From Tepidanaerobacter sp. EBM-38 (GTDB lineage Bacteria > Bacillota > Thermosediminibacteria > Thermosediminibacterales > Tepidanaerobacteraceae): a stretch of 64,000 bases of DNA. The notes below the pieces were generated by a model. It had not been told where the DNA came from. It saw only the letters and a program-made list of their open reading frames with translations, and ran no database searches. Numbering within the stretch: position 1 is the first letter of the stretch; each line of letters starts with the position of its first letter. Positions 47,692 to 62,446 of this stretch are shown here, one piece after another. The stretch lies in the NCBI GenBank assembly GCA_001896545.1, contig MPOT01000025.1, positions 62,001-126,000 of the forward strand, read 5' to 3'. A program made the position numbers and the translations under genes.

Positions 47692-47728
47692 TATAGCTTA
47701 AAAAATAATGAAGGGAGTAATTTGGATT

Positions 47729-48316
47729 ATGGATGTAAAAATAAGAAAGTTTTACACCATTGTTGAAGAGATCAAGAGCGATGGCGGAAAAGAAATTGAA
47801 GGTAAACCCCACAAACGGGCTGCTGCTGCAGTAGTAATTGAAAATCCATTTGCAGGTAAATATGTAGAGGATTTATCGCCATTGACAGAGTGGAGCGTAG
47901 AAATCGCACCAATACTGACCCAAAAAGCCCTTGCTGCCGCTGGCATGAATAAAACAGAAGTGGAAAGCTATGGAAAAGCAGCTATAGTCGGCGGAAATGG
48001 AGAGTTAGAACACGCAGCGGCACTTCTTCACCCAAAACTGGGCAAACCCTTTAGAGACGAAGTTAATGGAGGCAAGGCAATAATACCATCAGCTAAAAAG
48101 ATGGGATATCCAGGGTGCGCCATAGATGTACCACTGCATTTCAAGGATGCGGCTTTTGTCAGATCGCATTTTGATGCTATGGAAGTAAGAGTACCTGACG
48201 CACCTAGAGACAATGAGATAGTTTTAATACTTTCTGTTACTAACTGTGGCAGGCCTCACCCGAGAGTTGGCGGACTTACAAAAGAAGAAGCCAAATGCGA
48301 AGATGGTTTATGGTAA
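47729..48316 (+). CDS. AA_synth/DUF1185-family protein
   Basis: About 195 residues; ATG at 47729 with gaaggga upstream (frame open from 47708). Family signatures: KIRKFYTIVEEIKSDGGKEIEGKPHKRAAAAVVIENPFAG in part, ALAAAGMNKTEVESYGKAAIVG, ELEHAAALLHPKLGKPFR and NCGRPHPRVGG. The family is annotated as amino acid synthesis, with a chorismate-mutase-like fold but no proven reaction, and is often found near ring-opening amidohydrolases. Here it sits between an enamidase and a flavoprotein, so a role in heterocycle breakdown is an inference. Confidence 0.8.
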   Translation: MDVKIRKFYTIVEEIKSDGGKEIEGKPHKRAAAAVVIENPFAGKYVEDLSPLTEWSVEIAPILTQKALAAAGMNKTEVESYGKAAIVGGNGELEHAAALLHPKLGKPFRDEVNGGKAIIPSAKKMGYPGCAIDVPLHFKDAAFVRSHFDAMEVRVPDAPRDNEIVLILSVTNCGRPHPRVGGLTKEEAKCEDGLW

Positions 48317-48382: not shown

Positions 48383-49891
48383 ATGCTTCAAATAATGAAT
48401 ATAGGAATTACAGATGTAGCAGTAATAGGTGGTGGGCTTGCAGCCATGTATGCAGCTTTGGAAGCAAGCAACTATGATAAATCCGTAGTCATTATATCAA
48501 AAAAACCTGTGGGTAGATCCGGTGCTTCTGTTATTTCTAAATCGGTTCATAGGTTTCCCCCTGACCATTTAAAGGAGAAGCTTTCATATAAAAATAAGAT
48601 TATTGAGGCTGGCAGATATATTAATAATAGGGATTTAGTAGATACTTTCGTAGAGCATGCCTCACAAAAAATGGATAATATTGAAAAGTTAAAAGTCGGA
48701 TTGAACTTTAAAGAAAAACTTATAGATGGCAAGAATCATAAATATTTTGCTGCATGCAAGCCTAAGATGGGCAAACATCTTACTATACCGCTTTCGAACA
48801 TTATAAAAACTAAAGACAACATAAATATAATGGAAGGATACATGGCAGTTCAGATAGTAATAGAAAGAGATACTGTCTGCGGAATTTTAATAGAAAATAA
48901 GAATCGCCTATATTTTCTCGGTGCAAAAGCTGTGGTAATTGCGACAGGTGGAGGAGGATATAATTACATCCAAACTAGCAATACCAATGACTTAACCGGG
49001 GACGGGTATGCTATGGCCTTAAGAGCTGGCTTGCCTTTGATAGATATGGAGTTTATTCAGTTCTACCCATATAGAACAGTATATCCCTTTCAACACGATA
49101 TTTTCCCAGATATTTTTAGCCATGGGGCTAAATACTTAAACGAAAAAGGCGAAAGATTTATGGATAAGTATCCCAAAAAGGAGCTGGAGAACAGAGATAT
49201 TTTATCTCGTGAAATGTTTTTTCAAAAGGAAATATATCTTAATATAGAGGATTGCGACAAGGATTTTATGAAAGAAGAATGTGATGACTTATACGACAAT
49301 TATTTAAAATATAAAGGTGAGCAAATCAAAGTTTCACCTGTTGCTCATTTTATGATGGGCGGCGTTAAAATAAATGCAGATACATCTACAGATGTAAGAG
49401 GATTATTCTGTTGCGGAGAAGTAGCCGGAGGTTTACATGGAGCAAATCGGTTAGCGGGGCATGCCCTTACTGAAACTGTAGTATTTGGTCATATTGCAGG
49501 AGAGGAATCCGCTCATTATGCTGGAAGCAAAACAAAGATTTCTGTAAACTTTGTTAAAGAAGAAACTGCTAATTGGGTTCCTAATATAGGCGAGGAGAGT
49601 CCAACGAATATAAAAAATATATTAAGAAGAAATATGTGGGAATCAGCAGGAATTGTTAGGAATGAAGATGATCTGCAACGAGCAAAAGATAAAGTAGAAG
49701 AACTAGAACAACAAATAAAAAACTTAAAACCTCTAAAATTGAGAGATTGGATTGAATGCCAAAATATGATCCAGACCTCAAAAATGATAATAGATTCTTG
49801 TATTTTAAGAAAAGAGAGTAGAGGAGCACACTATAGATCTGACTTTCCTGAAGAAGATATTAATTGGCAGCGGAATATAATAATAAACTAA
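48383..49891 (+). CDS. Fumarate-reductase/aspartate-oxidase-like flavoprotein
   Basis: 502 residues, FAD_binding_2 superfamily. FAD-binding VAVIGGGLAAMYAALEA (about 12-28), KPVGRSGASVIS (Ser-Gly loop), ATGGGGYNY, DLTGDGYAMALRAGLPLIDMEFIQFYP, the conserved His of SPVAHFMMGGV and GLHGANRLAGHAL; the tail has SRGAHYRSDFPEED. No signal peptide, heme or iron-sulfur motif, so it is a soluble dehydrogenase or reductase. Enzymes of this type reduce activated C=C bonds or oxidise amino acids. Its place among nicotinate genes is unexplained by the E. barkeri pathway. Confidence 0.78.
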   Translation: MLQIMNIGITDVAVIGGGLAAMYAALEASNYDKSVVIISKKPVGRSGASVISKSVHRFPPDHLKEKLSYKNKIIEAGRYINNRDLVDTFVEHASQKMDNIEKLKVGLNFKEKLIDGKNHKYFAACKPKMGKHLTIPLSNIIKTKDNINIMEGYMAVQIVIERDTVCGILIENKNRLYFLGAKAVVIATGGGGYNYIQTSNTNDLTGDGYAMALRAGLPLIDMEFIQFYPYRTVYPFQHDIFPDIFSHGAKYLNEKGERFMDKYPKKELENRDILSREMFFQKEIYLNIEDCDKDFMKEECDDLYDNYLKYKGEQIKVSPVAHFMMGGVKINADTSTDVRGLFCCGEVAGGLHGANRLAGHALTETVVFGHIAGEESAHYAGSKTKISVNFVKEETANWVPNIGEESPTNIKNILRRNMWESAGIVRNEDDLQRAKDKVEELEQQIKNLKPLKLRDWIECQNMIQTSKMIIDSCILRKESRGAHYRSDFPEEDINWQRNIIIN

Positions 49892-50730: not shown

Positions 50731-51822
50731 ATGTCCGAACAGAAAGAAAAGGGTTTTTCTGCTTATCTAAAAGAGCAAAACATCGAACTCACTTTTGACA
50801 GAATTGGTATCAAAGCTCTTGGTGCTATGGCTCACGGTCTATTTGCGTCATTATTAATCGGTACAATTATTAACACCCTGGGCAATCTACTTAAATTCCC
50901 GTTTCTTAACGAAATTGGTGCCTATGCCACGGCAGGTACCGGCGCAGCCATGGCAGTATCCATCGGTTACGCTTTACAAGCACCTCCCTTCGTTCTTTAT
51001 TCTTTGGTGGCTGTAGGTCAGGCTGCTAACAAATTAGGCGGCGCTGGCGGCCCTTTGGCCGTATTCTTCATTGCCCTTATTGCTGCCTTTTGCGGTATGC
51101 TGGTTTCCAAAAGAACGCGTATTGACTTAATTGTTACACCTTTTGTTACGATTGTTGTAGGCGTCACAGCTGCCTATTTTTTGGCTCCGCCCATCGGTGC
51201 CTTTGCTTCTTGGATTGGCAACATCATTATCTGGGCAACAGAAATGAGGCCATTCATAATGGGAATTCTGGTTTCCGCTATTATGGGTATCGTTCTTACA
51301 CTACCAATTAGCTCTGCGGCACTGGCTGCCGCTTTAGGGCTGGTTGGTCTGGCCGGCGGCGCTGCCCATGCTGGCTGCTGCGCTCACATGATTGGCTTTG
51401 CAGTCGCCTCTTACAGAGAAAATAAAATCGGCGGTTTAGCAGCCCAAGGTCTTGGTACATCCATGCTGCAAATACCTAATCTGTTGAAAAAACCGGTTCT
51501 ATGGATACCAGCAGTGGTTGCTTCTATCATCAATGGCCCTGTTGCTACTGTTGTTTTTAGGCTTAAACAAAACGGACCTCCTATCTCCTCAGGTATGGGC
51601 ACCTCCGGTCTCGTCGGTCCCATCGGCGTTATCACCGGTTGGTATACGCCTTCGGAGCAAGCTCTTGCCCACGGCGAGGTAGCCATGATCCCCACCGCCA
51701 TGGATTGGATTGGCTTAATTATGGTCAGTGTCGTGATCCCGGCGGTAGTAGCTTGGATTGTCTCTGAAATTATGCGCAAGAAGGAAATAATCGAGCCCGG
51801 CGATTTAAAAATCGAGGTCTAA
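50731..51822 (+). CDS. Orphan PTS EIIC-like membrane protein
   Basis: 363 residues, about nine helices, PTS_EIIC_2-type membrane domain: the LTFDRIGIKALGAMAHGLFASLLIG opening, LKFPFLNEIGAYATAGTGAAMAV, GGAAHAGCCAHMIGFAV and NGPPISSGMGTSGLVGPIG. No EIIA or EIIB domain and no PTS genes nearby, so phosphotransfer-driven sugar uptake is doubtful. Position directly before ndhF suggests transport of nicotinate or a product (inference). Codon use is noticeably more G/C-rich than in the neighbours, which suggests recent acquisition. caaggaggg precedes the ATG. Confidence 0.75.
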   Translation: MSEQKEKGFSAYLKEQNIELTFDRIGIKALGAMAHGLFASLLIGTIINTLGNLLKFPFLNEIGAYATAGTGAAMAVSIGYALQAPPFVLYSLVAVGQAANKLGGAGGPLAVFFIALIAAFCGMLVSKRTRIDLIVTPFVTIVVGVTAAYFLAPPIGAFASWIGNIIIWATEMRPFIMGILVSAIMGIVLTLPISSAALAAALGLVGLAGGAAHAGCCAHMIGFAVASYRENKIGGLAAQGLGTSMLQIPNLLKKPVLWIPAVVASIINGPVATVVFRLKQNGPPISSGMGTSGLVGPIGVITGWYTPSEQALAHGEVAMIPTAMDWIGLIMVSVVIPAVVAWIVSEIMRKKEIIEPGDLKIEV

Positions 51823-51923: not shown

Positions 51924-52796
51924 GTGCAGGAATTCAAATACTTTGCGCCTTCAGATATAAATCAAGCCTTAAAAATTCTTGACAGTGTAAAAGGTGATAA
52001 AAGAATCTTAGCTGGAGGAACTGATCTAGTCATAGCTATTAGAGAAAGGAAAATAAACCCTGAAGTAGTAATTGATCTAAAGAATACCCAAAATTTGAAT
52101 TATATAAAACAGGAAAACGGATACATCAAGATAGGTTCCATGAGCACCTTTACCGATGTTATTGAATCAGAACTCATCAAAAGAAAGGCAAGAGTACTTC
52201 ATGAATCTTGTTATTCAATGGGTTCCCCCCAGATTAGAAACTGGGCTACAATTGGGGGTAACATTATCAATGCTTCACCGGCTACAGATTCTGTACCAGC
52301 CCTTATGGTTCTTGATGCTACAGTTAAGCTTGAGAGTGTTTCGGGGATTAGAGAATTCAAGGTTCAAGATATTTTAAAAGGTATAAATAAGACCAATTTA
52401 AATGAAAATGAGATACTGACAGAAATATCATTTAAGATACCGTCAGAAAACACTGTAACAGGTTTTAGAAAACTTGGTCGGCGTGCCGCTTTATCCATTG
52501 CCAGAATAAGCATAGCATGTCTTATTGAAGTTGAAGAAAACACTATGAGATGTCGAGACGCTAGAATAGCCTTGGGAGCAGTAGCTAAAAATCCTATAAG
52601 GGCGACTTCAGCCGAAGAAGTGCTAATCGGAAAAGATATCTCACAGAAGCTTATTGATGATTGCGTTGAAGTAATATCAGAAATAGCGGTGAAAAATATA
52701 GGAAACAGGCCATCGTTACCTTTCAAGCGACAGAGCATAAAGGGCATTTCAAGGGAATTACTGAATCGACTTTACATGGAATTATGGTCAAACTGA
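51924..52796 (+). CDS. ndhF: Nicotinate dehydrogenase FAD subunit
   Basis: 290 residues from a GTG start after agggggtaggg. FAD-binding medium subunit of the xanthine dehydrogenase family: VKGDKRILAGGTDLVIAIRERK (FAD loop, about 20-41), IKIGSMSTFTDV, SPQIRNWATIGGNIINASPATDSVPAL (second FAD motif) and FRKLGRRAALSIARIS. Passes electrons from the [2Fe-2S] clusters to NADP+. Overlaps the region upstream of the fused ndhS-L gene, whose ribosome site lies at the ndhF stop. Confidence 0.93.
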   Translation: MQEFKYFAPSDINQALKILDSVKGDKRILAGGTDLVIAIRERKINPEVVIDLKNTQNLNYIKQENGYIKIGSMSTFTDVIESELIKRKARVLHESCYSMGSPQIRNWATIGGNIINASPATDSVPALMVLDATVKLESVSGIREFKVQDILKGINKTNLNENEILTEISFKIPSENTVTGFRKLGRRAALSIARISIACLIEVEENTMRCRDARIALGAVAKNPIRATSAEEVLIGKDISQKLIDDCVEVISEIAVKNIGNRPSLPFKRQSIKGISRELLNRLYMELWSN

Positions 52797-52810
52797 TGGA
52801 GGTGACAGGT

Positions 52811-54628
52811 TTGGAAGAAGTAAAAATATCTTTTATTTTAAATGATGAAAGTGTATCGGTGGAGGTAGATCCGAGAAAAAGACTCTTGGATATGTTGAGA
52901 GAGGACTTTTTGCTCACAGGAGTAAAAGAGGGTTGTTCTGTGGGAGAATGTGGTGCTTGCACAGTTTTGATAGATGGGAGAGCGGTAACATCATGCCTTG
53001 TTTTGGCACCACAGGTCAATGGACATAGAGTTACAACTATCGAGGGTCTACAAAAAAATGGAGAGTTACACCCACTTCAACAGGCTTTTATTGATTCCGG
53101 AGCAGTGCAGTGTGGATTTTGCACACCGGGGATGATACTTGCTGCTAAGGCTCTTCTGGACAGAAATCCACATCCAACTCGTGAGGACATAAAAACTGCA
53201 ATTTCAGGAAATCTCTGTCGGTGTACCGGTTATGAAAAGATTATAAAGGCAGTCGAAACAGCTGTAAAATATCTTGAAGGGAAAGATGAAAATAACAGGA
53301 CAAATGATAGAAAAAAGACTGAAACTTTAAAAAAGCTAACTGAAGAAGCTATTTCTGATGATATAAGAGTGATAGGGAAAAGTATTATTCGAAAAGACGC
53401 CTTAAAAAAGACAACCGGAGAAGCTCTTTTTGCTGGCGATATGCGCTTTGAAAATATGCTTTACGGAAAAGTCCTTAGAAGTCAGGTTCCTCATGCAATT
53501 CTGAAGAATATAGATACAACAGATGCTAAAAGTTTGCCCGGTGTAAAAGCGGTTCTGACTTACAAAGATATTCCCGGAGCTAATCGTGTAGGAATCATAC
53601 TAAAAGATGAGCCTGTTTTAGTGGATCATAAAATTGCCCGTATCGGAGATCCCATAGCTTTAGTAGCGGCAGAAACTCAAGAGATAGCCGAGGAGGCTCT
53701 AGAACGGATTAAAGTTGAGTTGGAAGAATTACCGCCCGTAGTCGATGTTAAAGAAGCTATAAAAGAAGATTCTGTAAAAGTTCACGGAGATACAAACATA
53801 ATAGCAATAAAAAACCTTATTAAGGGCGATGTTGAAGAAGGGTTTAGAAAAAGTGACATCATTGTAGAAAACCATTATAAAACTAATTTTGTTTCACATA
53901 TGTTTATTGAACCAGAGTGTGGTATAGGTAGTTATGAAAATGGAGTTATAACTGTGTGGTGCTCTTCACAAAATGTTCACTTTGATCGAGCTGAAGTAGC
54001 TCGTGTTCTAAATATGCCAAGAAGCAAGGTTCGAGTAATCCAGGCAGAAACCGGAGGGGGATTTGGTGGAAAACTAGACATATCCACTCAGTGTTATGCG
54101 GCTTTATTAGCTTATTATACAAAGAGACCAGTAAAAATCATTTACTCTCGAGTAGAGTCTACTATGGCTTCATCTAAACGACACCCAGCTATAATCAGAT
54201 GCAAAACAGGTGCTACCAAGGAAGGAAAGCTGATGGCCTTGGATGCTGATATGATTCTGGATACAGGAGCTTATGCATCTTATGGGCCTGGAGTAATCAC
54301 TAGGACTGTGGTTCATATTACAGGCCCTTATGATATTCCAAATGTAAAAGTTAAAGGTCATTTAGTTTATACAAATAATCCTATGGCTGGCGCTATGAGA
54401 GGTTTCGGTGTCCCTCAAGCAGCGATAGTTCACGAAAGTCAAATGGATATACTGGCAAAAGAGCTAGGGATAAGTCCCTATGAAATAAGAAAAAGAAATG
54501 TTCTAAAACCTGGATCTTACACTGCTACAAACCAACTGCTTACCTCAAGTGTTGGAATAGAAAAGACCTTAGATGCAGCAGTCGAAAAGGCAAAAGAAAT
54601 GTTAAAAGGATGGGAGGGGATTCTGTGA
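52811..54628 (+). CDS. ndhSL: Nicotinate dehydrogenase, fused [2Fe-2S] subunit and large molybdopterin subunit
   Basis: About 605 residues from a TTG at 52811, six bases after ggaggtg; the frame is open from 52784. Residues 1-155 are NdhS: plant-type cluster Cys42, Cys47, Cys50, Cys62 and alpha-helical cluster Cys101, Cys104, Cys136, Cys138. A charged linker (about 156-185) leads into NdhL, with KTTGEALFAGDM, the AETGGGFGGKLDIS molybdopterin contact and AGAMRGFGVPQAA. In E. barkeri ndhS and ndhL are separate genes; here they are one continuous frame, while the L/M split is kept. Active site expected to carry Mo with a labile selenium. Confidence 0.92.
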   Translation: MEEVKISFILNDESVSVEVDPRKRLLDMLREDFLLTGVKEGCSVGECGACTVLIDGRAVTSCLVLAPQVNGHRVTTIEGLQKNGELHPLQQAFIDSGAVQCGFCTPGMILAAKALLDRNPHPTREDIKTAISGNLCRCTGYEKIIKAVETAVKYLEGKDENNRTNDRKKTETLKKLTEEAISDDIRVIGKSIIRKDALKKTTGEALFAGDMRFENMLYGKVLRSQVPHAILKNIDTTDAKSLPGVKAVLTYKDIPGANRVGIILKDEPVLVDHKIARIGDPIALVAAETQEIAEEALERIKVELEELPPVVDVKEAIKEDSVKVHGDTNIIAIKNLIKGDVEEGFRKSDIIVENHYKTNFVSHMFIEPECGIGSYENGVITVWCSSQNVHFDRAEVARVLNMPRSKVRVIQAETGGGFGGKLDISTQCYAALLAYYTKRPVKIIYSRVESTMASSKRHPAIIRCKTGATKEGKLMALDADMILDTGAYASYGPGVITRTVVHITGPYDIPNVKVKGHLVYTNNPMAGAMRGFGVPQAAIVHESQMDILAKELGISPYEIRKRNVLKPGSYTATNQLLTSSVGIEKTLDAAVEKAKEMLKGWEGIL

Positions 54629-55611
54629 TAAAAACTGGAATAGGTATCGGATGTATGTGGTACGGTATAGGGAACACCGGCCTACCCAATCCTGCTGCAG
54701 CTTTTGTCGAGGTGCATAGTGACTGTTCAGCGACTTTACTCACCGGATGCGCAGATATTGGTCAGGGTTCCAATACTGTTCTTGCCCAGATCGTAGCTGA
54801 GACTTTAGGTATAGATTTTGAAGATGTATTCGTAACTTCTGCTGATACTGGGGTAACACCCGAAGCCGGTGCTACATCGGCCAGTCGACAAACCTACATT
54901 TCCGGCAATGCGTGCAAGCGGGCTGCAGAAATGGCTCGGCAAACCCTTGTAGATCTAGCTGCAGATCTGCTACAGGATGATAAAGATAAAATCCTTTTAA
55001 AAGATAAAATGGCTTTTGTAAAAGATACAGATAAATCCATCAGCATGGCAAAACTCTTAGAGGAATGCGACCGGCGTGGGATACTAGTAATAGGCAGCGG
55101 TTCCTTTAACCCGGATACAACTTATTTGGATGCTCAAACAATGGCTGGCATACCATATGCTACATATGCATTTGCTACTCACATAGCGGAAGTGGAAGTT
55201 AATACAGAGACTGGAGAAATTAAAGTTAAAAAAATTATAGCTGCTCATGACGTAGGAAAAGCTGTAAACCCGTCGCTGATTGAAGGACAAATTGAAGGGG
55301 GGTGTTTAATGGGTGCAGGTTATGCCCTTTTAGAGGAGGTTTTGTTGTCGAATGGTCGAATAACCAACCCGAATTTATCTAATTATCTATTATTCACAGC
55401 AAAGGATGTACCTGAAGTATACCCAATCATTGTGGAAGAGAAAGAAGAAACGGGTCCTTATGGAGCAAAGGGTGTCGGTGAACCGTCACTAATTCCTACA
55501 GCCCCTGCTATACTAAATGCCATTTATAATGCTACAGGTGAACGGTTTACGGATATTCCGGTGACACAGGAAAGATTTATCGAACAGACCTATTATAAAT
55601 TTGACAAATAA
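54625..55611 (+). CDS. ndhM: Nicotinate dehydrogenase medium molybdopterin subunit
   Basis: About 328 residues. A GTG at 54625 overlaps the previous stop as GTGA and follows gggagggg; the frame begins at 54610. It is the second half of the molybdopterin protein: GIGCMWYGIGNTGLPNPAAAFVE (in part), TGCADIGQGSNTVLAQIVAETLG, GATSASRQTYISGNA and GAKGVGEPSLIPTAPAI, whose Glu is the catalytic base of the xanthine oxidase family. Length equals the E. barkeri subunit (about 330). With NdhSL and NdhF it hydroxylates nicotinate to 6-hydroxynicotinate. Confidence 0.93.
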   Translation: MIKTGIGIGCMWYGIGNTGLPNPAAAFVEVHSDCSATLLTGCADIGQGSNTVLAQIVAETLGIDFEDVFVTSADTGVTPEAGATSASRQTYISGNACKRAAEMARQTLVDLAADLLQDDKDKILLKDKMAFVKDTDKSISMAKLLEECDRRGILVIGSGSFNPDTTYLDAQTMAGIPYATYAFATHIAEVEVNTETGEIKVKKIIAAHDVGKAVNPSLIEGQIEGGCLMGAGYALLEEVLLSNGRITNPNLSNYLLFTAKDVPEVYPIIVEEKEETGPYGAKGVGEPSLIPTAPAILNAIYNATGERFTDIPVTQERFIEQTYYKFDK

Positions 55612-55688: not shown

Positions 55689-56849
55689 ATGACTATTATA
55701 GCTATTAAAAACATAGGAACTTTGGTAAGTGGTGATATTAAAAAACCAATTTCTTCGTCTAACACAATTATCATTGAAGACGGGAAAATTGCAAAGCTAG
55801 GGAATGAGGAATTATTAAAGCAATACCAATGTGACAAGGTAATTGATGCAAAAGGCATAACCGTTACTCCAGGCCTTATAGACTCACATGTGCATCCGGT
55901 TATAGGAGATTTTACACCACGCCAAAACACATTAGGGTTTATTGATAGTTCCCTTCATGGAGGAGTAACCACAATGATATCCGCAGGGGAATGTCATACT
56001 CCTGGCAGACCGAAAGATGTAGCAGGAACTAAGGCATTAGCTATATTGGCACACAAAAGTTTCCAAAATATGAGACCTGGCGGTGTCAAACTTCACGGTG
56101 GTGCCCTCATATTGGAAAAAGGCCTTACAGAAAAGGATTTTGAGGAACTAGCCCGGGAGGGAGTATGGTTAGTAGGGGAGATAGGCCTAGGTAGTATTAA
56201 CAAACCTGAAGACGCAGCCCCTATGGTAGAGTGGGCGAAAAAACATGGATTTAAGACAATGATGCATACCGGAGGTACATCGATTCCCGGTAGCACTACC
56301 GTTACAGCTGCTGATGTAATGCAAGTCAATCCTCATGTGGTATCTCATCTGAATGGAGGTCCTACTGCTATACCGATAGAAGAAGTAAAAAAGTTGATCG
56401 ATGAAACATCAATAACCCTGGAAATGGTTCAATGCGGTAATTTCAAAGTATTTAAACAAGCTATTGAATGGTTGAAAGAGAAAAATCAATTAGACCGGGT
56501 CATCCTTGGTAATGATTCGCCGTCAGGAACTGGGATTATACCCTTGGGAATCTTAAGATCCGTATGTTTTATAGCTTCTATGACAGGTGTATCAGCTGAA
56601 GAAGCCCTATGTATGGCTACTGGCAATACTGCTCGTGTTTATGGCCTTAATGTAGGGATAATAGAAGAAGGTCGGGAAGCAGATCTTGTATTGATGGATG
56701 CTCCTATGGGTTCTGTAGGCAAAAATTGCATTCAAGCACTGGAAGCCGGAGATCTCCCCGGGATTTCCATGGTAATAATTGATGGAAAGCTAGTGGCAAC
56801 AAAGAGTAGAAATACTCCTCCTCCCGCAATAAAAGCGGTTGTTTGCTAA
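55689..56849 (+). CDS. ena: Enamidase, second copy
   Basis: 386 residues, the same length and gap-free alignment as the copy at 46284. All metal and catalytic motifs are kept (DSHVHPVIGDF, KLHGGALILEKGL, MMHTGGTSIPGS, VSHLNGGPTAI, LGNDSPSGTG). Directly upstream of hnr, so this is the most likely housekeeping enamidase of the pathway. aaggagtc precedes the ATG. Confidence 0.92.
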   Translation: MTIIAIKNIGTLVSGDIKKPISSSNTIIIEDGKIAKLGNEELLKQYQCDKVIDAKGITVTPGLIDSHVHPVIGDFTPRQNTLGFIDSSLHGGVTTMISAGECHTPGRPKDVAGTKALAILAHKSFQNMRPGGVKLHGGALILEKGLTEKDFEELAREGVWLVGEIGLGSINKPEDAAPMVEWAKKHGFKTMMHTGGTSIPGSTTVTAADVMQVNPHVVSHLNGGPTAIPIEEVKKLIDETSITLEMVQCGNFKVFKQAIEWLKEKNQLDRVILGNDSPSGTGIIPLGILRSVCFIASMTGVSAEEALCMATGNTARVYGLNVGIIEEGREADLVLMDAPMGSVGKNCIQALEAGDLPGISMVIIDGKLVATKSRNTPPPAIKAVVC

Positions 56850-56873
56850 AATATATACGGAGGTAAAGTGATT

Positions 56874-58388
56874 ATGATTGTGATTGATTTGGAAAAATGC
56901 AGGGGCTGTAGTTTATGCGTTAAAAATTGCCCCCTTGAAGCAATCAAAGTTATTAACAAAAAGGCAAAAATAAATGATAATTGCGTTAATTGCGGAATTT
57001 GTTTCAGAGTCTGCACATTTGAAGCTATTAAAAGGACTGAAGAAAGGGCACCGGAGAATATTACATGTACCCACTGCCCTGTAAACTGTTCAATTCCACC
57101 GGAAAAAACCGGTGCGTGCAAGCGATATACTCATGTAAACGGAGAACTAATGAGAAATAGAAAGCTGGTAGTGGAAGCCATAACAGCCGAAACGGAGACA
57201 GCCAAGCTGCCTTATAAGCCGCTCATTACTGCTGTAGGCAGTGGTACCAACTACCCTTGTTCCTATCCCGCACCATATATTGTCAGTGAGTCTATTGATG
57301 GAGTTGATGTGATTACCGTAGTCACTGAAGCACCTCTTAGTTACAGTGGTGTCAAGGTTAAAATCGATACAAATCTTCACATTGGGGAAGAGGGGGCAAA
57401 AGTTCGACGGGATGGGAAGATTGTAGGAATGGTTACAACGGAGGAATATGGTTCTAAGATGCTGACTATTGGTGGTGCAAATCTCTTAAGCGGTAGCAAT
57501 GATGGCTTTATAGTAGCCAGGACCATAGTAGACTTAGTTAATGGCCGCAGGGTTACATTAAAAGTGGATAAGGGAAGTACTATGGAAATTCAACATGGTT
57601 TTCCTCCAGTAATTGACGGTCAGGAAGAAAAACTGATGCGGGTAGGTTGTGGCAGTGCTACTGTAGGTATGTTTGCCAGGCAATTATCTAAGGTAGTAGA
57701 CGAGGCGATAATTCTTGACTATCACATAATAGGGCTTTTATCGGAGCATATGGCTGGTAAGGCGGTAGGCATGGCTTATAGCGGTGTGGTTCCATACGGC
57801 CGCAAGAGTACCAACGGTAGATATTTTGGAAAACCGGGACACGGCTGGGGAGGAACGGAAATTACCGATCCAAGGGATGCCATAAAGTCCATAGATATGG
57901 GTATCGCCCGTTCTGGTATGAAAATATTGGTGACCGAAACTACAGGTCAGCAAGCTGCCCTTTTTGAGATACAAGAGGATGGTACTGTAAAATCTATAGA
58001 AATGCTCCCATCGGTGAGGGATGCAGTAAAGATCATTGCAGATACATGTGAGCGGTCAATGGTTTCGGTTATATATACCGGTGGTACTGGAGGAAGTGCC
58101 AGAGCCGGGGTGACTAATTTGCCCAAAGCACTTACCGATGCTATACATAGGGAAGAAATAAAATTAACTATCGCAGGAGCTCCAACTTTTGTGCTTCCCG
58201 GTGGTGGCATAAACTTTATGGTGGATGTTTCAAAAATGGTTCCCGAACCGTTAACTTGGGTGCCGACGCCAGCTACCGTTGCACCGGTGGAATACACTAT
58301 GACTCGTGAAAAATACGAAGAAATCGGTGGCCATGTAAACCATGTTATGTCAAAACAAGAACTTCTCAAGAAACTGAAAGAGTCATAA
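56874..58388 (+). CDS. hnr: 6-hydroxynicotinate reductase
   Basis: About 504 residues; ATG at 56874 is nine bases after acggaggt (a GTG at 56868 is too close). Reduces 6-hydroxynicotinate to 1,4,5,6-tetrahydro-6-oxonicotinate, probably with reduced ferredoxin. Two [4Fe-4S] motifs: Cys9, 12, 15, 19 and Cys37, 40, 43, 47; a further group Cys65, 68, 72, 82 may hold the [2Fe-2S] cluster. The large C-terminal part is glycine-rich. The E. barkeri enzyme has a covalently bound flavin; no canonical D-x-x-(x)-S-G-A-T site is present here, the nearest being GSAT at about 260-263. Confidence 0.9.
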   Translation: MIVIDLEKCRGCSLCVKNCPLEAIKVINKKAKINDNCVNCGICFRVCTFEAIKRTEERAPENITCTHCPVNCSIPPEKTGACKRYTHVNGELMRNRKLVVEAITAETETAKLPYKPLITAVGSGTNYPCSYPAPYIVSESIDGVDVITVVTEAPLSYSGVKVKIDTNLHIGEEGAKVRRDGKIVGMVTTEEYGSKMLTIGGANLLSGSNDGFIVARTIVDLVNGRRVTLKVDKGSTMEIQHGFPPVIDGQEEKLMRVGCGSATVGMFARQLSKVVDEAIILDYHIIGLLSEHMAGKAVGMAYSGVVPYGRKSTNGRYFGKPGHGWGGTEITDPRDAIKSIDMGIARSGMKILVTETTGQQAALFEIQEDGTVKSIEMLPSVRDAVKIIADTCERSMVSVIYTGGTGGSARAGVTNLPKALTDAIHREEIKLTIAGAPTFVLPGGGINFMVDVSKMVPEPLTWVPTPATVAPVEYTMTREKYEEIGGHVNHVMSKQELLKKLKES

Positions 58389-58391
58389 AAA

Positions 58392-59222
58392 ATGATGAAC
58401 CAATTGGAGGACGGTCGAGTATTTCTTGAATATGGACCCATACGCATGTTAATGGATGTTTCAATTAAAGTACAAAGACAACCAGAACTGGCGTTTATGG
58501 TAGGCTTAGATGTTATTGAAGAGTTCAAAAGAGCTTGTGAATACATGTCTCTTATTAAAGGTCAAGATCGTGTAAGGGAGTCTGTACAAAACTATCCCAT
58601 ATCAGTACAAAAGATGCTAGCTGCAGTCAAGAGAGTAGGGGATGAAACCCTTACTCCTCTGGCGGCAGTAGCAGGTGCTTTTTCCGATATTGCCCTTGAA
58701 AAGGCACTTGCACTTGGAGCCGAAAGAGTCATTATAAACAACGGCGGAGATATTGCATTTAAAGATATAAGGGGAAATCCTATAAAGATAGGTATTCCTG
58801 TGTCAAAAAATTCTCCTACCCCCTTTTTAACCCTGATGATTTCCGATAAGAATGTGACTGGAATTTGTACCAGTGGGATAGGAGGTAGGAGTTTTACTAA
58901 AGGCATAGCTACTGCAGCGGTAGCCATAGCTGAAAATGCTGCCTTGGCAGATGCTTGCGCTACATATCTTGGTAATGAGACTAATGTGGAAGACCCTGAA
59001 ATAATTCGATGTTATGCAGAGGAGATAGATTCAGAGACTGACATACCCGGCCATCAAATCACACTGAAAGTAGGATGCCTAAGCAAGAAAAAGATATATA
59101 GTGCTTTGTTAAATGGTATGAAGGCTGCGGAGGATATATATGAACGACACATAATATGGGGTTCTATATTATGCATAGATAAAGAGATAGTAACTGTGCC
59201 ATCGGAAATTAATATCTCTTGA
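58392..59222 (+). CDS. UPF0280 family protein, ApbE-like; candidate flavin transferase for Hnr
   Basis: 276 residues, three bases after the hnr stop; a second Met follows the first. UPF0280 belongs to the ApbE-like superfamily: LAAVAGAFSDIALEKALALGAERVIINNGGDIAFK (cited in part) parallels the ApbE segment G-x-A-K-G-x-x-x-D-x-...-N-x-G-G-D, and GICTSGIGG then ALADACATYLGN parallels the metal-binding A-D-A-x-x-T. ApbE attaches FMN to protein threonine or serine. Pairing with hnr, whose product carries covalent flavin, makes it the obvious flavinylation candidate. This is inference; UPF0280 has no proven reaction known to me. Confidence 0.8.
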   Translation: MMNQLEDGRVFLEYGPIRMLMDVSIKVQRQPELAFMVGLDVIEEFKRACEYMSLIKGQDRVRESVQNYPISVQKMLAAVKRVGDETLTPLAAVAGAFSDIALEKALALGAERVIINNGGDIAFKDIRGNPIKIGIPVSKNSPTPFLTLMISDKNVTGICTSGIGGRSFTKGIATAAVAIAENAALADACATYLGNETNVEDPEIIRCYAEEIDSETDIPGHQITLKVGCLSKKKIYSALLNGMKAAEDIYERHIIWGSILCIDKEIVTVPSEINIS

Positions 59223-59443
59223 AATACTGCATACTATTCATAATATAATGATTATTTACCGTATAACCTATTTTTATAATTGTACGGTCAACATCTAGTG
59301 CGTTTGATTATAATTAGAATAATGTAGAAATAATTGACTTTTGATAGTAGAATAAACAATAAGCGTAGAGTATGCTTTCTAATGATATAATTTACAAACG
59401 TGTCTTGTTCTTTTTATATAATCAAAAAATGTGGGGTAGCAAT

Positions 59444-60211
59444 ATGCTGCTTAATGCTTTAAACATAATTGAGAATAATGAAGTAATATCTCTAGTGGGG
59501 GCAGGAGGTAAAACCTCTTTCATGTATGCCTTAGCCCGTGAACTATCCTCATTGCAGAGGAGAGTCCTTATAACAACTACAACTCATCTCAAAAAACCTA
59601 CGGGAAAAGCTTATGAACTAATGATTCTAGAAAATTGCCCCAAAAGAGCCGCCAATAAAATAAACCAAATATTTGATGCATCGAACGTGGCTTTTTGGGC
59701 AGATAACGAAGTGTCTGATGGAAAAATACGTGGGTTATCCATGGAAAGTATTGATATTATCGCCGATATGGGCATTGCCGATAATATACTAATAGAAGCT
59801 GACGGATCCAAAGGCTTGCCTATAAAAGCGCCTGCATATAATGAACCTGTTATCCCAAAGAAAACAACCATATTGATAGGTGTAATTGGGATTGATGCTC
59901 TAGGTCGCACTATAGATGACAAGACTGTACACCGGCCTGAATTTTTAAGCATGATATCAGGGAAACCTTTAGGTGGGATTATCGATGAGGCGGTGATACA
60001 AAACCTAATATTTTCTCCATATGGTCTGTTTAAAGGTGCTACAGAGCAAATGAAGAAAGTTGTTGTGATAAATAAAGTTGATAATAATCAAATATTAGAC
60101 CTTGCAATAAAGTTGGCGGAATCCATAAAAAACGTAAGCAATATAGAGATTTTTCGCATTTTACTCACATCTTTTAATTGTGAAACTTCTAGAATCAAGG
60201 TGATTTTATAA
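59444..60211 (+). CDS. yqeC: YqeC-type selenium cofactor protein
   Basis: About 255 residues; ATG at 59444 after ggggtag is preferred (frame open from 59372). P-loop-like SLVGAGGKTSFMYALARELSS, then RRVLITTTTHLKKP, EADGSKGLPIKAPA and PEFLSMISGKPLGGIIDE. YqeC is a marker of selenium-dependent molybdenum hydroxylases, thought to act in making or inserting the labile selenium. It begins a maturation block yqeC-mocA-xdhC-yqeB behind the nicotinate dehydrogenase genes. I see no gene in the preceding 220 bases. Confidence 0.88.
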   Translation: MLLNALNIIENNEVISLVGAGGKTSFMYALARELSSLQRRVLITTTTHLKKPTGKAYELMILENCPKRAANKINQIFDASNVAFWADNEVSDGKIRGLSMESIDIIADMGIADNILIEADGSKGLPIKAPAYNEPVIPKKTTILIGVIGIDALGRTIDDKTVHRPEFLSMISGKPLGGIIDEAVIQNLIFSPYGLFKGATEQMKKVVVINKVDNNQILDLAIKLAESIKNVSNIEIFRILLTSFNCETSRIKVIL

Positions 60212-60789
60212 TGGGAGAATCATCAAAAGATAGTATAAAAATATGCGGTATTATTTTAGCGGCAGGGGAAGGGAAAAGGGCCGGTGGAGGCAAGTTGAGT
60301 AGGGATATTCAGGGAAAGCCCATGCTACAGTGCGTTGTTGAGATGGCAGTACAATCTAGTCTAGATGATGTCCTATTGGTCACTGGATATGAAAGAAATT
60401 TAGGTGAAAAAATAGCAAAGCGTGCTGGTATTAGATCCTACTATAATGCCGACTATCCATTGGGTATGAGCACATCGCTCAAGCTGGGGATATCTAAGGT
60501 GCCCCAAGGGATTTCTGCTGTTGTAATAATATTAGGAGATATGCCGTATATTCAAAGGGAAACCTTAGATTCTATTATTGATTTACATAAAACAACTAGG
60601 AGTAAGATAATCATCCCTGTCTACAATGGAAAGAAAGGCCATCCGGTTTTAATGGCTTGCACTTACAATGATGAAATATACAATATCTCAGGTGATAGGG
60701 GAGCACGGGAAATTATAAAAAAGCATGTTGATGAAGTTGTATACTTAGAGACTGGCGATCCGGGTATATTGCAGGACATCGATTATTAA
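60211..60789 (+). CDS. MocA-like molybdenum cofactor nucleotidyltransferase
   Basis: 192 residues. Nucleotidyltransferase fold: CGIILAAGEGKRAGGGKLSRDIQGKPML (motif L-A-A-G-x-x-x-R, cited in part), VILGDMPYIQRETLD (metal-binding Asp) and GHPVLMA. MocA attaches CMP to molybdopterin to form the cytosine dinucleotide cofactor used by xanthine dehydrogenase-type enzymes such as nicotinate dehydrogenase. Start overlaps the yqeC stop; aaggtga precedes it. Confidence 0.87.
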   Translation: MGESSKDSIKICGIILAAGEGKRAGGGKLSRDIQGKPMLQCVVEMAVQSSLDDVLLVTGYERNLGEKIAKRAGIRSYYNADYPLGMSTSLKLGISKVPQGISAVVIILGDMPYIQRETLDSIIDLHKTTRSKIIIPVYNGKKGHPVLMACTYNDEIYNISGDRGAREIIKKHVDEVVYLETGDPGILQDIDY

Positions 60790-60809
60790 TTTATTATGAG
60801 GTGATGGTA

Positions 60810-61640
60810 TTGGAAGGTTCTAAAGTAATAGAGAAGCTTGCTTGCATGATAGCTCAAAATGAACCTGCGGCACTAGTAACGGTAGTGGAATCTTCTGGTT
60901 CTACTCCCCGAGGGCCAGGAAGTATGATGTTAGTTGATAAAAAGGGTGTGCTTTTGGAAGGGACTATTGGCGGAGGAATTCTCGAAGAAAGGGCTAAAAG
61001 CGATGCGGCCGAATGTCTCAGGGTAAAGGAATCGAAACTTTTTTTCTATGAACTGGGTGCGGAAAATGAAAAATCATTGCCTATGATTTGTGGTGGAAAT
61101 ATTAGGTATTTTGTTAAAGTATTTCCCAAAAAAAAACGGCTTATAATTATAGGAGCCGGACATGTAGGGGAAAAACTATGTAAAATGGCTAATATTTTAG
61201 GATATACGATTATCGTTGTTGATGATCGGGAAAACCGTGCTACGAAGGAGAACTTTCCGGAAGCAAGTCAGCTTCTTGTGGGTGATATTCTGGAGAACTT
61301 GAGGAAAGTTTCTATCGATGAGAATACCTGCATAGTAATAGTAACACATGCTCATAAATATGATCAAGCTGTCCTGGAGGCTGTAATTGATTCAAATGCA
61401 TTATATATAGGTATGATAGGGAGTGTTTCTAAAGTTAGGACATGTTTTGAGAATTTACGGGAAAAGGGTATATCCAATGAACTCATTGGTAAAGTTTACT
61501 CTCCTATAGGTTTAGATATAGGAGGTGAATCCCCTGAAGAAATAGCCCTTTCCATTATGACTCAAATTCAGGCTATTACTTATAACAAGAGCGTGCCGCA
61601 CATGAAGTATATTATGAAACAAAAAAATCAGGAGGGCTGA
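60810..61640 (+). CDS. XdhC/CoxI-family molybdenum hydroxylase maturation protein
   Basis: About 276 residues; a TTG at 60810 follows gaggtga, with GTG and ATG codons a few bases upstream as alternatives. N-terminal XdhC_CoxI domain (VVESSGSTPRGPGSMMLVD, GTIGGGILEERAKSDA) and C-terminal Rossmann XdhC_C domain (LIIIGAGHVGEKLCKMANILGY, THAHKYDQAVLEAV, IGMIGSVSKVRTCFENL, SPIGLDIGGESPEEIALSI). XdhC binds molybdopterin, protects it and delivers it to the hydroxylase, here NdhSLM. Confidence 0.9.
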   Translation: MEGSKVIEKLACMIAQNEPAALVTVVESSGSTPRGPGSMMLVDKKGVLLEGTIGGGILEERAKSDAAECLRVKESKLFFYELGAENEKSLPMICGGNIRYFVKVFPKKKRLIIIGAGHVGEKLCKMANILGYTIIVVDDRENRATKENFPEASQLLVGDILENLRKVSIDENTCIVIVTHAHKYDQAVLEAVIDSNALYIGMIGSVSKVRTCFENLREKGISNELIGKVYSPIGLDIGGESPEEIALSIMTQIQAITYNKSVPHMKYIMKQKNQEG

Positions 61641-61642
61641 GC

Positions 61643-62446
61643 TTGCAAGATTTGGTGGTTTTAATAAAGGGTGCCGGCGAAATGGCGTCTGCTGTAGCGC
61701 ACAGACTATACCGATCGGGATTTCAAATTATTATGACCGAAGTGGAAAAACCCTTGATGGTACGAAGGCATGTATCTTTCGGGAATTGTGTATATGAAGG
61801 AAGTTGGCAGGTAGAAGGGGTTAAGTCAAAATTGGTGAACGATTTAAGAGAAATCCGGAGTACTTTAACCGAGGGCAAAATACCCGTGTTAATTGATGAT
61901 AAGTGTCAACTTTGCCAAGCTTTAAGTCCTAAAGTGATAGTTGACGGGATTTTGGCTAAACGAAACACCGGAACAACCATAAACGATGCACAGGTAGTCA
62001 TTGGCTTAGGGCCGGGCTTCGAGGCAGGTAAAGATGTTCATGTAGTGATTGAGACAATGAGGGGACACGATCTGGGACGAGTGATTCTAAAGGGAGCCGC
62101 ACAGAAAAATACAGGTACTCCGGGCCCAATTCAGGGTATTACAGATGATCGAGTATTGCGGGCACCTAGAGCGGGAGTGGTTAAAAATATTCTAGATATA
62201 GGGAGCCTTGTAAAAAAAGGTGACATTATAGGTAACGTAGGTGACCAACCGTTTACTGCAAAAATTGATGGGATTTTGCGGGGATTAATTCATGATGGTT
62301 TAACCGTTAAAGCAGGGCAAAAGATCGGGGATATAGATCCTCGGGGCCAGGTAGATTACTGTAATACCATAAGTGATAAAGGTAGGACTATTTCGGGAGG
62401 AGTATTGGAAACCATATTGTTGCTTTTAAAGGATGTAAATCTGTAA
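61643..62446 (+). CDS. yqeB: YqeB-type selenium-dependent molybdenum hydroxylase maturation protein
   Basis: 267 residues, TTG start after caggaggg. EF2563/YqeB family: LVVLIKGAGEMASAVAHRLYRSGFQIIMTE at the start, RRHVSFGNCVYEG, then DDKCQLCQALSPKVIVDGILAKRN with two close cysteines, LGPGFEAGKDVHVVIETMRGHDLGRVI. YqeB marks selenium-dependent molybdenum hydroxylase loci together with YqeC and XdhC. Its presence predicts that this nicotinate dehydrogenase contains non-selenocysteine selenium, like the E. barkeri enzyme. Confidence 0.9.
   Translation: MQDLVVLIKGAGEMASAVAHRLYRSGFQIIMTEVEKPLMVRRHVSFGNCVYEGSWQVEGVKSKLVNDLREIRSTLTEGKIPVLIDDKCQLCQALSPKVIVDGILAKRNTGTTINDAQVVIGLGPGFEAGKDVHVVIETMRGHDLGRVILKGAAQKNTGTPGPIQGITDDRVLRAPRAGVVKNILDIGSLVKKGDIIGNVGDQPFTAKIDGILRGLIHDGLTVKAGQKIGDIDPRGQVDYCNTISDKGRTISGGVLETILLLLKDVNL

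Follow-up and report, generated by a model that had tools for sequence, protein, structure and literature searches.

COG2122 (UPF0280), the protein encoded next to 6-hydroxynicotinate reductase (Hnr) in Tepidanaerobacter sp. EBM-38, is probably a divergent flavin transferase of the ApbE type that works in the cytosol. It would attach FMN, taken from FAD, to an Hnr threonine, likeliest Thr151, and a sister clade would serve DUF39 proteins. We put the probability of this reading at about 0.6. An earlier note, made on the window (the whole stretch of 64,000 nucleotides analysed here), had proposed UPF0280 as a flavin transferase for Hnr. The pairing of the two genes, the ApbE fold and the Mg- and phosphate-site residues speak for that proposal; the missing catalytic His and Lys of ApbE speak against it.

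The ATG of the UPF0280 gene lies three bases past the hnr stop codon on the same strand, as the note had observed (Table 1). A GGAGG at 56859–56863 ends ten bases ahead of the hnr ATG, and an alternative in-frame start, GTG 56868, is present in the list of open reading frames. The amidohydrolase upstream is presumably an enamidase, a name that comes from the E. barkeri cluster; a similar gene (E < 1e-20) is found in 43 of 80 Hnr loci (the best 80 of 588), 52 of which extend over at least 15 kb. From context, nicotinate is the probable substrate of the dehydrogenase-like subunits. On the other side, YqeC and YqeB are model matches, and the MocA and XdhC labels are readings of the translations. 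The molybdenum hydroxylase subunits, the enamidase-like amidohydrolase, YqeB and YqeC fit a nicotinate-fermentation cluster.

Table 1. Position in the window of the hnr–UPF0280 pair, its neighbours and the residues discussed in the text.
Feature	Position	Strand	Basis
Nicotinate dehydrogenase-like FAD, Fe-S/Mo and Mo subunits	51924..55611	+	Domain and family models
Enamidase-like amidohydrolase, directly upstream of hnr	55689..56849	+	Pfam Amidohydro_1
hnr, 6-hydroxynicotinate reductase, 504 aa, proposed client	56874..58388	+	ORF, ATG 56874, stop 58388
Hnr N-terminal 2[4Fe-4S] ferredoxin domain, residues 1–57	56874..57044	+	Pfam Fer4 matches
Hnr Cys65-Cys68-Cys72-Cys82 cluster, candidate [2Fe-2S] ligands	57066..57119	+	All four Cys invariant, 53/53
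Hnr 145–151 D-V-I-T-V-V-T, predicted flavinylation heptamer, candidate acceptor Thr151	57306..57326	+	Conservation, ApbE-motif spacing
UPF0280/COG2122 gene, 276 aa, ApbE-fold protein, proposed cytosolic flavin transferase	58392..59222	+	ATG 58392
COG2122 N117-G-G-D120 = ApbE GGN (FmnB Asn216, Mg site)	58740..58751	+	G119, D120 47/47; hhalign
COG2122 T160-S161-G ... R166 = FmnB Thr256-Ser257 ... Arg262	58869..58889	+	S161 47/47, T160 46/47, R166 44/47
COG2122 A-D187-x-x-x-T191 = FmnB Mg ligands Asp301, Thr305	58947..58964	+	D187, T191 47/47; hhalign
YqeC, MocA-like, XdhC-like and YqeB selenium/molybdenum cofactor genes	59372..62446	+	Models for YqeC, YqeB

Hnr and UPF0280 occur together far beyond this lineage, a point on which the earlier proposal had staked itself. 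Among the best 80 of 588 Hnr loci, a sample biased toward close relatives, 79 contain COG2122, and these come from several phyla and one archaeon. COG2122 is always downstream of Hnr and on the same strand in the 79 loci, its match starting less than 150 nt from the end of the Hnr frame in 73; the sole locus without it has a copy elsewhere in the same genome. On all 26 plasmid records with Hnr, COG2122 is likewise close by. One Hydrogenophaga plasmid has COG2122 but no Hnr of its own. No earlier report of the pair was found in the literature searched.

Genome-wide counts agree. Across 149 genomes of the phylum, COG2122 (E < 1e-8) is present in all 56 with DUF39 or Hnr and in 4 of the 93 others (Fisher 1e-36, a descriptive p value for related genomes), a count that leaves out four genomes with E > 1e-4 in ApbE-sized frames. 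The four COG2122 genomes that have neither DUF39 nor Hnr carry it beside metH-like or nicotinate genes. All seven Hnr copies in this sample are paired with COG2122; here 37 of 43 matching genomes were left out as short N-terminal pieces below 26 bits, and three pieces in one genome were counted as one split gene. Of 101 genomes sampled from an archaeal phylum, COG2122 is found in 28 of the 29 with DUF39 and in 1 of the 72 others (G251, at E 1.8e-4, was left out of this count); none was found in the DUF39 genome G243. Because 9 of 16 Hnr genomes are without DUF39, the link of Hnr to COG2122 is independent of DUF39.

The enzyme had been thought dedicated to Hnr, which does not stand: DUF39 (COG1900) is a second constant partner, with its own COG2122 clade. 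The COG2122 tree splits by partner (support 100/100, with the bootstrap not settled). The host genome has one COG2122 of each type, the window copy belonging to the Hnr-linked clade and the second copy to a DUF39–ferredoxin–metH operon. Arg166 is present in 44 of 47 sequences of the COG2122 alignment; in 30 DUF39-linked copies this position is Pro (21) or His (9). Adjacency to DUF39 is not obligatory: among 35 further loci, 25 have COG2122 within about 4 kb of it, and in two genomes a single COG2122 accompanies two DUF39 genes. Synechococcus elongatus has a DUF39 match and no match to the COG2122 model used. Nor is the family uncharacterised, as had been supposed, since UPF0280 is COG2122, which published genetics, including work in M. 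acetivorans, link to homocysteine synthesis with DUF39/COG1900 (PMC5764234 and PMC12068725). UPF0280 was not found mentioned by name in the literature searched, and DUF375, a term that also matches longer DUF numbers, gave no relevant-looking title among the matches listed.

UPF0280 belongs to the COG2122 family (MA1715, DvMF_0044 and DVU1097, PDB 2o34). It matches the PRK04334 model (NF003322) with E 5.8e-62 and 209 bits, below the 290-bit cut-off of that model, and Pfam ApbE (PF02424) with 22.6 bits, just under the cut-off of 25.6. Similarity to PDB 2o34 is evident both in sequence (E 4e-6) and in structure (Z 22.3 over 213 residues). The structure model (pLDDT 94.6) also matches solved ApbE proteins with Z 15–18 over 202–217 aligned residues (model range 6–276). 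Aligned by hhalign to ApbE, the two COG2122 types together give E 2e-8; the DUF39 type alone is weak (E 4e-4, probability 34%, 48 columns). Searched against PDB sequences, the COG2122 profile found 2o34 and no ApbE. UPF0280 has the whole-length fold of ApbE (FmnB, Ftp and VcApbE), together with its Mg D..T pair and GG[ND] and TSG elements, and its proposed target has a heptamer of similar spacing, but UPF0280 falls below the Pfam cut-off, is without the catalytic His, the AKG Lys and (by eye) the lipoprotein start, and has 276 residues compared with 290–330 in the solved ApbE chains listed.

Both ApbE-like blocks picked out in the earlier note are present, N-N-G-G-D at residues 116–120 and A-D-A-C-A-T at 186–191. 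In the COG2122 alignment (47 sequences including the window's, from 77), the Mg-site Asn216 of FmnB is replaced by Asp (D120, 47/47), and the catalytic Ser (FmnB Ser257, Vc Ser241) is kept as S161 (47/47, hhalign). The equivalence of T160-S161-G comes from hhalign, and that of R166 with Arg262 from spacing alone. The ligand roles of Asp301, Thr305 and Asn216 are those given for FmnB in PMC8906456. The general-base His of ApbE (FmnB His273, Vc His257) has no counterpart, its segment being a gap in COG2122; neither has Lys190 of A-K-G, where Ala94 (47/47) stands beside G95, which hhalign aligns to the glycine of K-G. FmnB Asp184 aligns to Thr88. The metal and FAD residues of ApbE sought in the alignment are kept in the Mg and phosphate positions (46–47/47) and lost in the catalytic His and Lys. 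Earlier authors described the homology of COG2122 to ApbE as missing the flavin-binding region (PMC5764234).

The genome carries one canonical ApbE, the start of which is lipobox-like by eye, giving it the appearance of an exported lipoprotein; by the same inspection, the UPF0280 start has no lipoprotein signal. This resemblance to a lipoprotein signal disfavours the housekeeping ApbE as the flavinylator of Hnr, and its apparent export implies that flavinylation of Hnr by ApbE chemistry, if it takes place, would call for another enzyme, one in the cytosol. Cytosolic flavin transferases acting on soluble reductases, as proposed here for UPF0280, are known from the ApbE of Klebsiella fumarate reductase and from eukaryotic ApbE–fumarate reductase fusions; unlike UPF0280, these are classed as ApbE and, according to a review, use motifs of the D-x-x-[ST]-G-A-[ST] type (PMC12052999).

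The body of the window Hnr is 41.6–45.2% identical, over 96–98% of its length, to Hnr on the 26 plasmid records, most of which are annotated as 6-hydroxynicotinate reductase. The Hnr of E. barkeri is reported, in work of Alhapel in 2006, to contain covalently bound flavin, a [2Fe-2S] and two [4Fe-4S] clusters, and from this content Cys65, Cys68, Cys72 and Cys82 may hold the [2Fe-2S]. The structure model (pLDDT 93.6) has a ferredoxin fold in the N-terminal domain (Z 7.9–11.1 among the matches listed); its Foldseek and VIA matches mostly concern this domain and barely probe residues 58–504. Of the best 80 of 588 Hnr loci, 28 show two occurrences of a strict four-Cys pattern and the other 52 do not, and COG2122 accompanies both kinds.

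Hnr contains no exact D-x-x-[ST]-G-A-[ST], as had been stated, this being the ApbE target motif (PMC12052999). A degenerate heptamer at residues 145–151, overlooked in the earlier note, has the same spacing as DxxSGAT; the G-A is absent. The pattern [DE]xxTxx[TS] is found in 81 of 81 Hnr sequences (the best 80 of 588 loci plus the window), with Asp in 74 and Glu in 7, T148 in all 81, and only Thr (71) or Ser (10) at residue 151. The corresponding counts in the alignment of 53 sequences, including the window's and drawn from the 81, are D 47/E 6, T 53 and T 49/S 4. Thr/Ser exchange is also seen at T313 (52T/1S), T432 (51T/2S) and T475 (50T/3S) of the 53, among the Thr/Ser columns listed; the heptamer is favoured over these because nowhere else do an acidic residue at −6 and a Thr/Ser at −3 precede such a column. 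Such a triplet turns up in 1.3% of column shuffles. The model places T148 and T151 in a predicted strand (144–155) and not in a loop, which would count against the site. GSAT lies at residues 260–263, where it had been reported as the nearest motif, but is not conserved, and it is ruled out as the acceptor because residue 263 varies (T 45, A 5, S 3 of 53). Judged from sequence conservation, Thr151 is most likely the better candidate acceptor.

DUF39 proteins (COG1900; L-ASST and the coenzyme M synthase MMP16) resemble Hnr in being ferredoxin-linked, in their constant COG2122 partner and in a D-x-x-T-x-x-T present in 66 of 66 sequences, including those without the Cys (a 67th row, a truncated copy of the host genome's own gene that is blank at the site, was left out). 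One DUF39 carries DIVTGAT, the exact ApbE motif, in the same column. Homology between Hnr and DUF39 is not significant (profile E 0.1–0.3 under several hhalign settings and with more diverse rows); this weak alignment covers the segment of the heptamer, with the two proteins in register. Another stretch that keeps the order, Hnr 'IVDLVNGRRVTLK' with DUF39 'ICDLIAGKKIHLQ', appears in low-threshold hhalign paths only. A sequence search at E 1 gave no relative of DUF39 with a solved structure, and flavin in DUF39 proteins or in L-aspartate semialdehyde sulfurtransferase was not found reported in the literature searched.

The absence of the ApbE catalytic His and Lys would suit a flavin-binding protein that hands FAD or FMN to Hnr, or helps Hnr to fold, with autocatalytic 8-alpha or C6 attachment at a His, Cys or Tyr. 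Autocatalytic formation is common among covalent flavins, and Hnr has further invariant residues of these kinds (His284, His292, Cys259, Cys392 and Tyr157 in the 53 sequences). We nevertheless consider this unlikely: mere delivery would not require the retained Mg- and phosphate-site residues, and Thr/Ser exchange at Hnr 151 fits a phosphoester site. The least probable account has COG2122 acting as a nucleotidyl- or other phosphotransferase and placing a non-flavin group such as AMP on the same Thr of Hnr and DUF39. Against it stand the covalent flavin that E. barkeri Hnr is reported to contain and the lack of any known report of AMPylation, although it would explain why the ApbE site has kept its Mg/phosphate half and lost Lys190 and His273. 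FmnB, which has the ApbE fold, also binds AMP, ADP and ATP (PMC8906456).

Sulphur or persulphide trafficking, as put forward for Methanosarcina MA1715, would have COG2122 giving Hnr sulphur, for example for its [2Fe-2S]. The M. acetivorans genetics and the persulphide proposal (PMC5764234 and PMC12068725) favour it, as does the four-Cys cluster invariant in 53 of 53 aligned Hnr. However, Hnr chemistry involves no sulphur transfer, the invariant residues of Hnr-type COG2122 include no Cys, and the COG2122 fold is that of ApbE. In addition, four archaeal DUF39 sequences with COG2122 nearby have lost the catalytic Cys and kept D-x-x-T-x-A-T. We rate trafficking as rather improbable, below delivery with autocatalysis.

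According to the flavin-transferase reading, COG2122 would move FMN from FAD onto a threonine of the adjoining Hnr, likeliest Thr151 of D145-V-I-T-V-V-T151, and the covalent flavin would let the one-electron Fe-S clusters of Hnr perform the two-electron reduction of 6-hydroxynicotinate. The sister clade would flavinylate DUF39/COG1900 (aspartate-semialdehyde sulfurtransferase and relatives), where the segment around the invariant D-x-x-T-x-x-T is similar. We hold more tentatively, at somewhat less than even odds, that flavin transferases have a second class, COG2122, which is cytosolic, recognises the relaxed motif [DE]-x-x-T-x-x-[TS] and supplies covalent FMN to both Hnr and COG1900. In that case aspartate-semialdehyde sulfurtransferase and the coenzyme M synthase of methanogens would carry covalent flavin too, and would use it to gather the electrons that ferredoxin delivers one at a time for the two-electron step of reductive thiolation. 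COG2122 mutants would then owe their 'sulphur-trafficking' phenotype to the loss of this flavin.

If true, the flavin-transferase reading would give a chemical function to COG2122, a family known only by phenotype. It would make predictable the missing cofactor step of Hnr, namely how and where its flavin is installed, and the cofactor of COG1900, and with it the way in which electrons from ferredoxin power the making of homocysteine and coenzyme M. The motif would serve to spot further flavinylation clients, and protein flavinylation, mostly described outside the cytosol, would reach into the central metabolism of anaerobic bacteria and archaea.

The window carries what looks like a nicotinate-fermentation cluster (see table). 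The gene for 6-hydroxynicotinate reductase (Hnr) and the UPF0280 gene are separated by three bases (58388 to 58392), bearing out the spacing read in the earlier note. Hnr begins with a two-cluster ferredoxin domain (Pfam scan), C-terminal to which lie an invariant Cys65-x2-Cys68-x3-Cys72-x9-Cys82 set (alignment) and the roughly 420-residue body. The UPF0280 protein matches PRK04334 models (profile search) and DVU1097, PDB 2o34 (sequence search); its Pfam ApbE match falls just under the cut-off. We take UPF0280 and COG2122 to be one family, because of the match to 2o34 and because a second copy lies in a DUF39 operon of the same genome.

Coordinates of the nicotinate cluster in the window and of the DUF39 operon of the same genome
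Feature	Position	Remark
Cytosine/purine-type permease	44837-46108	
Enamidase-like gene	46284-47444	
PF06684 'amino acid synthesis' protein	47708-48316	
FAD_binding_2/fumarate-reductase-like flavoprotein	48383-49891	inside nicotinate cluster
PTS_EIIC_2 membrane protein	50731-51822	just upstream of dehydrogenase genes
[2Fe-2S] subunit and first molybdopterin domain	52784-54628	fused in one gene
Second molybdopterin domain	54610-55611	separate gene; 19-base overlap with 52784-54628
Enamidase-like gene	55689-56849	
hnr	56874-58388	ATG at 56874; 504 aa
UPF0280 gene	58392-59222	same strand as hnr; 276 aa
DUF39 - ferredoxin - COG2122 - MetH activation-like - MetH-like operon	G000:C75 (L142:3795-9000)	second COG2122 copy of the window's genome

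The PTS_EIIC_2 protein is a candidate nicotinate transporter, and the permease a second candidate. The dehydrogenase genes lie between two enamidase-like genes of equal length that are 79% identical; one of these two perhaps has another substrate. At one other locus (L200, genome G076) the frames suggest separate genes for the [2Fe-2S] subunit and the first molybdopterin domain. The PF06684 gene is a recurrent member of such clusters: 64 of 80 Hnr loci (the best 80 of 588) have a gene like it, and several annotated plasmids carry two such genes next to each other.

The hnr–COG2122 pairing is real and wide, and the co-occurrence that the earlier note had left to be checked extends beyond this lineage. 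Searched at the protein level, plasmids yielded 26 records with Hnr and 23 with UPF0280; in the 22 that have both, no more than about 0.6 kb lies between the two matches, and inspection of the remaining four Hnr records placed UPF0280 directly downstream, bringing the pairing to 26/26. A scan of one genome per species (84,980 species) gave at least 588 confirmed Hnr relatives; among the best 80 of the 588 loci, COG2122 lies downstream on the same strand in 79, its match beginning less than 150 nt past the end of the Hnr frame in 73, and in the remaining one (L062) the copy sits elsewhere in the genome. Among the titles of the Hnr records are Bacillota, Thermodesulfobacteriota, several Pseudomonadota and a Hecatellales archaeon. 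An even sample of the window's phylum (149 genomes; Hnr counted at >200 bits) holds seven Hnr copies in six genomes; COG2122 shares the contig with every copy, directly adjoining six of them and lying some 3 kb from the seventh (G134:C88).

The one plasmid with UPF0280 and no Hnr is from Hydrogenophaga; its COG2122 gene (L016, 9920-10852) has genes for a Rieske oxygenase, a PDR/VanB reductase and a tripartite transporter as neighbours, in units repeated together with IS1071, and is possibly a third context or a captured copy. At L193 (4755-6316), from G131, a genome of the 149 in which the Hnr search found no hnr, the enamidase-like gene of a nicotinate cluster has a COG2122 remnant of 114 aa behind it, as if hnr and COG2122 had decayed together.

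The earlier note took UPF0280 to be dedicated to Hnr; this does not hold for the family, as DUF39 (HcyBio, PF01837) is an equally constant partner. DUF39 occurs in 51 of the 149 genomes and COG2122 in all 51; COG2122 lies inside flanks of roughly 1.5 kb at 29 of 30 fetched DUF39 loci and near 25 of 35 further, more diverse ones. With presence set at E under 1e-8, COG2122 is found in 56/56 genomes with DUF39 or Hnr versus 4/93 without (Fisher p ~1e-36, the genomes being related). Those four have metH-like or nicotinate genes alongside (neighbours labelled from translations); three of the COG2122 genes are short, with frames 105, 114 and 186 aa long, and the contig of the fourth measures 4.6 kb. 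Across 101 genomes of an archaeal phylum, COG2122 is present in 28 of 29 with DUF39 versus 1 of 72 others. The control genome of Synechococcus elongatus, with a DUF39 match and no match to the COG2122 model used, is an exception. In the window's genome, where both partners occur, COG2122 is present twice: one gene adjoins hnr and the other, the paralogue used for comparison with the window's UPF0280, belongs to the DUF39 operon; an archaeon having Hnr and DUF39 likewise has two. A tree of 106 COG2122 sequences splits by partner with 100/100 support, the single archaeal-sample row on the Hnr side being the Hecatellales gene itself, entered twice. DUF39 is missing from 9 of 16 Hnr genomes tested, and the Hnr–COG2122 link is therefore no by-product of methionine synthesis.

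The predicted UPF0280 model (pLDDT 94.6) is closest to 2o34 (Z 22.3) in structure comparison; ApbE structures come next (Z 15-18, 202-217 residues, rmsd 3.1-3.7), with unrelated rows at 7.4 or below. Profile comparison with 30 ApbE sequences gave E 2e-8 for both COG2122 types jointly and 4e-4 for the DUF39 type alone; a COG2122 profile run against PDB sequences matched 2o34 and no ApbE. We used the numbering of FmnB, an ApbE enzyme whose Mg ligands are Asp301 and Thr305 according to PMC8906456. The ApbE likeness proposed earlier stands for the fold and for residues of the Mg and phosphate end: D187 and T191, equivalent to the two ligands, are present in 47/47 COG2122 sequences, as is D120 at the Asn216 position; Thr256-Ser257 correspond to T160 (46/47) and S161 (47/47), and Arg262, by spacing, to R166. 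It fails at Lys190, replaced by Ala94, and at the segment carrying the general base His273, which COG2122 lacks in alignment to ApbE. The statement in PMC5764234 that COG2122 homology to ApbE misses the flavin-binding region is too strong for the fold and phosphate end and right for some catalytic residues. According to PMC12052999, Vibrio ApbE loses activity in part when the His is changed to Gly. Position 166, after T-S-G-x-G-G, is Arg in 44/47 of the Hnr-linked clade and Pro (21) or His (9) in 30 DUF39-linked copies, a difference that could reflect client or mechanism.

The single canonical ApbE of the window's genome should act outside the membrane, because its start, judged by eye, combines a hydrophobic stretch with a lipobox-like ISAC; no hydrophobic stretch was seen by eye at the UPF0280 start. 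Since that ApbE starts like a lipoprotein and Hnr starts with a ferredoxin domain, Hnr would need a cytosolic enzyme. Cytosolic ApbE enzymes acting on soluble reductases are described in PMC12052999, which gives the ApbE target as D-x-x-[S/T]-G-A-[S/T], the final residue being modified.

That exact motif is found in 0/53 aligned Hnr sequences, as the earlier note had read for the window's protein; GSAT (260-263), which it named as the nearest site, was rejected because its last position varies among aligned Hnr. The COG2122 target should sit in the shared Hnr body, because a strict pattern picks up the four-Cys ferredoxin repeats in 28 of the 80 loci (best 80 of 588) and not in 52. Within that body, residues 145-151 fit [DE]-x-x-T-x-x-[TS] in 81/81 Hnr (those 80 loci plus the window): Asp in 74 and Glu in 7, T148 in 81, residue 151 Thr in 71 and Ser in 10 with no other, and V-V in the middle of most. 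With columns shuffled, 1.3% of trials produced a triplet of this kind. DUF39 has an analogous heptamer, mostly D-V-V-T-T-[GA]-T, with D-x-x-T-x-x-T in 66/66 sequences having residues there (chance 3.1%, from shuffling of the first 32-row alignment). Four archaeal DUF39 rows lack the Cys of the usual M-C-S-S-G downstream of the heptamer, yet keep D-[VI]-[VI]-T-[TSG]-A-T; they resemble the MMP16 type as PMC12068725 describes it (the label is ours), and one, L237, has at this alignment position D-I-V-T-G-A-T, which matches the ApbE motif exactly. The Hnr–DUF39 profile alignment is not significant (E 0.1-0.3), its top piece being the heptamer segment in register. In the predicted Hnr model (pLDDT 93.6) the heptamer falls within strand 144-155, a location that counts mildly against a flavin site.

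We favour, at a probability of roughly 0.6, a reading in which COG2122 transfers FMN to Hnr in the cytosol, the missing ApbE His and Lys being among its chief weak points; it probably serves DUF39 in the same way. Work by Alhapel in 2006 is reported to have found covalent flavin in E. barkeri Hnr. The family's job might instead be sulphur trafficking, and this is disfavoured because Hnr, a constant partner, moves no sulphur. What the two clients would share is a two-electron reduction powered by Fe-S donors that give one electron at a time, and a bound flavin would be the natural converter between the two. The kinds of component, an ApbE-fold protein and a reductase, are already known; the literature searched gave no earlier report of the near-universal Hnr–COG2122 pairing, the partner-wise split of the family or the heptamer common to Hnr and DUF39, and within that literature these three are new.
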